35,376 nt of DNA from a bacterium (GTDB lineage: Bacteria; Zhuqueibacterota; Zhuqueibacteria; Zhuqueibacterales; Geothermadaptataceae): positions 1-35,376 of the forward strand of contig JAJRYV010000037.1 in NCBI GenBank assembly GCA_024275575.1, read 5' to 3'. A program made the translations under genes and the position numbers. The notes below the pieces were generated by a model. That model did no database searches. It was not told the origin of the DNA and was given only the letters and a program-made list of their open reading frames with translations. Within the stretch, counting starts at the first letter, position 1; every line of letters starts with the position of its first letter. Shown one piece after another: positions 34,020 to 35,090 of this stretch.

Positions 34020-35090
34020 CTACCCATCCTGGTGTTTCGAAACAAAGTCATCAACGATATACTTTGCATGAATACGCCCGTTTTCAATAAAAATCTTATT
34101 CGCATCGCGCAAACCGCCGGCGACGACGCCGGCGAGATAAAGACCGGGAATTTCAGTTTCCATGGTTTGCGGATTATAAATGGGGATCAAACCATCATCA
34201 TTTATCCCTACACCGGCCCGGCGGAGAAAATCAAAATCCGGATGATAGCCGGTCATCGCCAAAACAAAGTCGTTTTCTATTTCAAACGGGGACTGGTTGT
34301 CGGTTTGCAGCATTATTTTGTTGGGCTGAATTTCTTTGACTTCTGTATTGAAACAGGCTTTAATGCTGCCTTCTTTAATACGGTTTTCGATGTCCGGCCG
34401 GATCCAATATTTGACAGAGTCACCAACTTCGGCATGGCGGTGAATAAGCGTGACTTCTGCTCCGGCACGGTAGAGCTCCAAAGCCGCTTCAACGGCTGAA
34501 TTCTGCCCGCCGATGACCGCCACTTTTGTGCGATAATAAATATGGGATTCTGAGTAATAGTGGGATACTTTTTCTGTATTTTCTCCGGGCACATTGAGCA
34601 AATTGGGATGATCGAAAAAACCTGTTGCCAGTACGACCGCTTTAGCGGAATAACTTCCCCCGGGAAATAGAGCGAAGGCGTCTCGCCGAGCGCAACGCTC
34701 TGCGGGAGGCTTTCGCTCTATGCTTTTAGTGAATCGGCCACTTTCCGACCGGGTTTCAACATGAAAACCAGAATCAGCCTTTTGCACACCAACCACTTTT
34801 TGCCGCAAACGGATATTCAATTTATAAAACTCAGCCACTTTAGTGTAGTAACGCAGGAGCTCGCTACGTGTTGGTTTTGGGCCGTTGGTTAAAAACGGAA
34901 TATCGCCAATTTCCACCAGCTCGGGCGTGGAGAAAAAAATGCAGTTTGTTGGAAAACGGTAAACGGCGTCGAGCAGCACGCCTTTTTCGAGCACGATATG
35001 ACGCAGGCCTTTTTTTTGCGCCTCAATGCCACAAGCCAAACCGATGGGGCCGGAGCCAATTATGATGAGGTCGTAGTTTGGTGAAGTCAA
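34020..35090 (-). CDS. ypdA: YpdA-family bacillithiol disulfide reductase with in-frame palindromic insertion
   Basis: 356 residues from a TTG start (35088-35090) preceded by AGGAAA. The family uses NADPH to reduce oxidised bacillithiol. FAD motif GSGPIGLA (12-19), NADPH motif VAVIGGQNSAVEAALEL (about 190-206) and a second FAD segment GLYLAGVVAGG near 325-335 are present; NCIFFSTPELVEIG (49-62) is typical. The usual length is about 325. The excess is at residues about 114-145, where SIERKPPAERCARRDAFALF is encoded by a palindrome (34667-34721) not expected in the family and located just before the ATGFFD strand. It lies between the FAD and NADPH domains' loops, so folding may be tolerated; activity is unproven. 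Confidence 0.88.
   Translation of the reverse strand: MTSPNYDLIIIGSGPIGLACGIEAQKKGLRHIVLEKGVLLDAVYRFPTNCIFFSTPELVEIGDIPFLTNGPKPTRSELLRYYTKVAEFYKLNIRLRQKVVGVQKADSGFHVETRSESGRFTKSIERKPPAERCARRDAFALFPGGSYSAKAVVLATGFFDHPNLLNVPGENTEKVSHYYSESHIYYRTKVAVIGGQNSAVEAALELYRAGAEVTLIHRHAEVGDSVKYWIRPDIENRIKEGSIKACFNTEVKEIQPNKIMLQTDNQSPFEIENDFVLAMTGYHPDFDFLRRAGVGINDDGLIPIYNPQTMETEIPGLYLAGVVAGGLRDANKIFIENGRIHAKYIVDDFVSKHQDG
34667..34721. repeat. Palindromic repeat inserted in the ypdA coding frame
   Basis: ATAGAGCGAA-G-GC (34667-34679) faces GC-T-TTCGCTCTAT (34709-34721), with a nested stem CTCGC/GCGGGAG and GAGCG-CAA-CGCTC, so nearly the whole 55 nt folds. The internal core GGCGTCTCGCCGAGCG also occurs in the MITE-like element near 2642, where ATAGAGCGAA (about 2610-2620) is found too. 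The reading frame is kept. Confidence 0.75.

Follow-up and report, generated by a model that had tools for sequence, protein, structure and literature searches.

A probable member of a family of palindromic, MITE-like repeats lies in frame within the ypdA gene of a Calditrichota genus

A 55-nt palindrome interrupts the coding sequence of ypdA in frame, in a region that corresponds to a loop of the encoded enzyme. With a probability of about 0.87, this palindrome is a member of a family of palindromic, MITE-like repeats that belongs to one Calditrichota genus, a copy of which inserted into ypdA and survived at a tolerant loop. The window, i.e. the whole stretch of DNA analysed, comprises the 35,376 nt of contig JAJRYV010000037.1 (assembly GCA_024275575.1), and the genome to which it belongs measures 4.96 Mb.

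Results

The ypdA gene and its palindrome

The open reading frame at 34020–35090 on the minus strand encodes a 356-residue protein identified as YpdA, a putative bacillithiol disulfide reductase. The NCBIfam model TIGR04018 (YpdA) scores it at 439.9 bits, with a cut-off of 339.9, and alignment to two solved YpdA/Bdr proteins supports the assignment. The AlphaFold model, with a mean pLDDT of 89, has the solved YpdA 7a76 as its top Foldseek match (TM-score of 0.96 on the target) and the YpdA fold is intact. Query residues 119–146 remain unaligned against 7a76. The pLDDT values drop below 50 for residues 119–139, which sit between the strands 108–115 and 146–154. The earlier note on this DNA had proposed modelling the structure to see whether the insert forms a loop, and the model indeed places it as a predicted disordered loop in an otherwise normal fold.

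The palindrome occupies positions 34667–34721, is built around the hairpin core ATAGAGCGAA...TTCGCTCTAT and is given no strand; it encodes YpdA residues 124–142 (IERKPPAERCARRDAFALF). With 44 of its 55 columns self-complementary it is the top 55-mer of the whole window, where the second best has 36 and shuffled windows reach 34–36. The plus-strand RNA folds with −44.7 kcal/mol (z of −5.45), a value equalled in none of 200 shuffles. A near-perfect in-frame palindrome of 55 nt, as originally described, is thus found at exactly this position and surpasses all others in the window. An Rfam search returned no RNA family at the repeat.

Elsewhere in the window, the contig start (64–202, minus strand) matches the Rfam family group-II-D1D4-3 at 36.7 bits, over the gathering score, and represents a group II intron fragment. 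Between 9409 and 14073 a GATATCACnGAnCGCAA-like stretch recurs eight times at intervals of 372–1596 nt, as would be expected of tandem PAS-type domains in putative long sensor proteins. The contig end (35200–35376) is reminiscent of the C-terminus of an IS66-type transposase.

The insertion in comparison with YpdA homologues

A search for the YpdA gene in 84,980 species genomes identified two Calditrichota metagenome-assembled genomes (MAGs) of the same genus as the nearest relatives, CLD2 (84% protein identity) and CLD5 (71%). The ypdA loci indicate that these are the genomes designated G001 (ypdA on contig G001:C15) and G002, in which contig G002:C478 shares sequence with the CLD5 locus. In an alignment of 27 YpdA proteins the insert is present only in the window's protein and in that of CLD2, whose ypdA has this repeat at the identical position; it is absent from CLD5 and from 24 distant homologues of many phyla. 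Relative to the empty site of CLD5 (VQT-ESGEK-YAAK), the coding interval 34653–34751 on the minus strand (residues 114–146) contains a net insertion of 28 residues, or 84 nt: the window's VETRSESGRFTKS-IERKPPAERCARRDAFALF-PGGSYSAK corresponds to VQTESGEKYAAK in CLD5. The alignment therefore locates the insertion within residues 114–146, where it had been suspected, with a length inside the proposed range of 20–30 residues and CLD2 as the sole other carrier. In principle, the empty site of CLD5 might also reflect a later loss of the insert. Because the CLD2 insertion is orthologous, the insertion in ypdA is old and real, and no assembly error.

A dispersed repeat family

The window contains a second member of the family, an intergenic MITE-like element at 2587–2761 on the plus strand with the ends CTGTTCAGCC...GCTGAACAG, delimited by its sequence, the core match and, for the ends, comparison of copies. 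It includes ATAGAGCGAA at 2610–2619 and GGCGTCTCGCCGAGCG at 2644–2659, the latter an exact repeat of the 16-bp core, which substantiates the earlier claim that the ypdA palindrome shares its core with an intergenic element near 2610–2660. The core 16-mer has four exact copies in the 4.96-Mb genome, compared with about 0.002 expected by chance (arithmetic), and 18 copies with up to two mismatches, compared with four for a reversed control in the same genome.

The 55 nt of ypdA match the dispersed family with a BLAST E-value of 1.9e-9. The core family model, R1, matches 34667–34721 at E 5.6e-17, a value obtained with a model trained on 16 copies that include the ypdA copy, so that the BLAST value is the independent figure. 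The 64-nt core consensus was found by BLAST at about 25 places in the window's genome, and a covariance model found at least 48 (rough E of 0.01 or better), together with more than 110 core copies in CLD2 and dozens in CLD5. These copy numbers are lower bounds because covariance scoring covered only the best candidates of a first pass, 150 out of 1657 in the window's genome and 150 out of 1160 in CLD2. The core is absent from four other searched genomes of the same family, and related cores occur in two genomes that represent a different family of the class, G031 and G037. In CLD5, tandem arrays of the repeat are seen at G002:C753:4447-5510 (spacing 176 nt) and G002:C312:5544-5734 (about 43 nt).

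Cores, shells and mobilisation

The cores are surrounded by outer parts ("shells") with different ends, namely CTGTTTAGCC, TTAACGTGAGTTCGAT and GGCTGTCCAAAAAG. In the window's genome the end motif CTGTT[T/C]AGCC flanks 39 of 52 cores on at least one side, and the element at 2587–2761 is a longer form of this kind of shell. CLD2 cores reside mostly in TTAACGTGAGTTCGAT-ended shells (219 ends, versus one in a reversed control), the ends of which pair about 167 nt apart; many of these elements are identical, and young copies carry TTAACGTGAG ends. A recent MITE burst in that MAG is represented by over 100 elements of 167 nt that are nearly identical and end in TTAACGTGAGTTCGAT (e.g. L132, L136, L193). 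In G031 and G037 the shell end is GGCTGTCCAAAAAG. Judged by sequence, a single hairpin core occurs in at least three different, unrelated-looking shells. Members of the family are short, multicopy and non-autonomous and have terminal inverted repeats, as is characteristic of MITEs.

At ypdA, a stretch of shell on the 5′ coding side (34722–34755, minus strand, ending ...CGGTCGGAAAGTGGCCGATTCACTAAAAGC; the outer limit is approximate) adjoins the core. It was recognised because flank and core together (34667–34755, 89 nt) align at 84% identity to G002:C722:2963-3082 of CLD5. This is the single recognisable end, the right-hand shell being missing or eroded. A candidate target-site duplication, GGAAAGT/GGGAAGT, overlaps shell sequence, and the limits of the element are eroded. 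The dispersal of the family and its ends suggest that the element moved by transposition; as no target-site duplication can be fixed and the right shell is missing or eroded, the transposition event itself is one that we infer. PF01797 (Y1_Tnp; RAYT/IS200-like) has zero matches in the window's genome and is present in CLD2 and CLD5; mobilisation by a RAYT was therefore rejected for the window's genome, which has no Y1 transposase. Among the CLD2 shell-end pairs listed there is no clear transposon-sized pair that might represent an autonomous partner, and no transposase with matching ends was found.

Copies in other genes

Open frames of at least 90 residues across the repeat were sought at 120 distinct cores, and the candidate frames were tested against Pfam and then against homologues with the insert omitted from the query. 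The accepted in-frame genes are ypdA (the window's species and CLD2) and two genes of CLD5, encoding a polymerase and a pectate-lyase/GH-like protein. In each of the three, a dispersed repeat lies in frame in an unrelated gene and is missing from homologues, the pattern that typifies the Rickettsia palindromic elements (RPE). The polymerase is a DNA polymerase III alpha-type protein with error-prone DNA polymerase as its top NCBIfam match, the piece being too short for the cut-off of that model. About 80 residues are added, and these are absent in the window's species, CLD2 and G003. The repeat is read here in a different frame (SSPKASRRG...SAGRFRSS) and one arm is tandemly duplicated. The pectate-lyase/GH-like protein has about 50 added residues that are missing from its CLD2 homologue (73% identity). 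Two CLD5 contigs, G002:C683 (L124) and G002:C652 (L129), share the GH-like locus and its repeat and diverge beyond, reflecting a paralogue, a strain variant or a misassembly.

A search with the peptide of the ypdA insert ranked ypdA of the two species highest, together with a CLD5 solute-binding lipoprotein (G002:C722) in which the repeat is read in the same frame. The repeat is in frame at the N-terminus of this lipoprotein, upstream of the signal peptide; the case is ambiguous, as translation may actually begin at a TTG immediately ahead of the signal peptide. The element at this locus also contains the ypdA flank 34722–34755, and by reading, its two ends form an inverted repeat.

Several frames of 90–230 amino acids over other copies had no Pfam match and were not accepted as genes. 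Also set aside were a pyrE-like gene of G037 and an acyltransferase-like gene of CLD5, in both of which the recognisable protein begins after the repeat. The related element directly before the pyrE-like gene (L142, G037:C321) is open in the same frame and is possibly an N-terminal extension or a 5′ leader hairpin.

The earlier note had put forward a protein-invading palindromic repeat peculiar to this lineage. The repeat family is borne out by about 50 further copies of the core in the genome (a lower bound), and the in-frame copies by at least two more genes of the genus. The in-gene share in the window's genome is about 1/50; as almost every copy lies between genes, "protein-invading" captures an infrequent outcome and not how the repeat usually behaves.

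Discussion

The best reading is of a non-autonomous element that avoids genes and occasionally persists in frame in tolerant loops. A core-bearing element would have entered ypdA in the common ancestor of the window's species and CLD2, presumably moved by a transposase acting in trans. This copy survived because the core has no stops in this frame, the net gain in length is divisible by three and the loop site between two β-strands is tolerant. Translation of the repeat would then add about 28 residues, rich in Arg and Ala and probably disordered, which may have little or no effect on the enzyme. The ypdA frame, when followed through most CLD2 copies, encounters a TAG just outside the core; stop-bearing outer arms would not be viable in genes, which would account for the almost wholly intergenic position of the other copies. 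Insertion into a gene would also, in most cases, destroy the reading frame or the protein fold, and such copies would disappear. The survivors within genes keep the frame, and that of YpdA is in a loop.

A tentative and rather unlikely extension is that the core is itself the mobile module, entering MITEs with unrelated ends, riding them and entering genes alone. This would explain both the core common to at least three shells in the phylum and the nearly shell-less copies in genes. If it is true, the protein insertions come from the core and not from any one MITE.

The designation of the palindrome as domesticated implies that the insert, or its mRNA hairpin, gained a function in YpdA, such as a binding surface or an effect on translation or mRNA stability, and was kept by selection. 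The repeat is in frame in two species that show changes at 65 of 125 fourfold sites in the rest of ypdA. In the 3′ arm of the insert 26 consecutive nt are identical, more than anywhere else in the gene, and between the window and CLD2 the fourfold changes number 0 of 6 in this arm and 2 of 10 in the insert as a whole. The few sites make this difference only weakly significant, however, and conversion by other genomic copies would look alike, the identical arm also being the family consensus. Moreover, three insert residues differ between the species (P/R, C/S, F/L) and the insert is predicted to be disordered. The sequence signal of selection on the insert is suggestive but small and can be mimicked by conversion; a gained function finds no support here and is improbable.

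A lineage-specific expansion of the YpdA loop, with palindromic DNA that is coincidental or arose locally, would agree with the variable length of this loop among YpdAs. This explanation, which has very little probability left, is refuted by the dispersed copies, as seen in the BLAST match to the family, and the same peptide is encoded in the same frame at an unrelated locus. Repeats are a known cause of misjoins and the CLD2 and CLD5 genomes are MAGs, but a repeat-induced chimera or binning artefact at ypdA is refuted by the same junction context in two separate assemblies of different species, by the reading frame kept on both sides of the repeat and by differences at 6 of 57 nt between the window and CLD2 copies.

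Among known systems, the RPE (Ogata et al. 2000) are described in a later review as short dispersed palindromes that are in frame and translated (PMC10969869). The present repeats likewise are short, palindromic, dispersed and multi-family, occur in frame in unrelated genes and add a peptide that is tolerated. They differ in phylum and in their core of about 55–64 nt set inside shells of about 130–230 nt. The in-gene share also contrasts with that of R. conorii, where nearly half of the RPEs lie in genes according to the same review (PMC10969869), and the host genomes measure 4–6 Mb, unlike the reduced intracellular genome of Rickettsia.

Intragenic GTAG/CGTC REPs are mostly intergenic as a class, a few lying in frame and adding 20–82 residues, with hosts that include DnaE/DnaE2 polymerases (PMC3733652). 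The present repeats resemble them as dispersed, mostly intergenic palindromes and in the polymerase host of CLD5. By definition a REP carries, at one end of a 5–13 bp stem, a GTAG or CGTC tetranucleotide that is unpaired (PMC3733652). In contrast, there is no unpaired head here, the CGTC being paired inside the stem in the fold of 34655–34730; the hairpin is larger and set in MITE-like shells, and the window's genome lacks the RAYT gene that accompanies GTAG-REPs. Like the prokaryotic MITEs Correia, ERIC and QMITE (PMC10969869), the elements are below 250 nt and have terminal inverted repeats, many intergenic copies and a strong hairpin; unlike these, one hairpin core is common to elements with different terminal repeats. 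Caldithrix abyssi, of the same phylum, has a REP-like repeat, AACCGTTnnAACGGTT, that is also palindromic and mostly intergenic (PMC5317091), but it is 18 nt long and unrelated in sequence. The family looks separate from RPE and REP, the likeness to RPE being one of kind. A limited literature search found no earlier report of it, although this does not prove that none exists.

Palindromic insertions that are translated were initially regarded as a trait of Rickettsia and later seen, as intragenic REPs, in other bacteria; the present repeats add a new family, from a phylum that is little known and for the most part uncultured. The ypdA insertion is placed on a tree, with two species that have it and one that does not, and is accompanied by two further genes. 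It thereby offers a natural case in which to ask whether inserts of this type are carried along neutrally or supply material from which new protein parts can be built. Caution is called for as well, since a lineage-specific insert of 20–80 residues in a protein from a MAG may be a repeat and not a domain.
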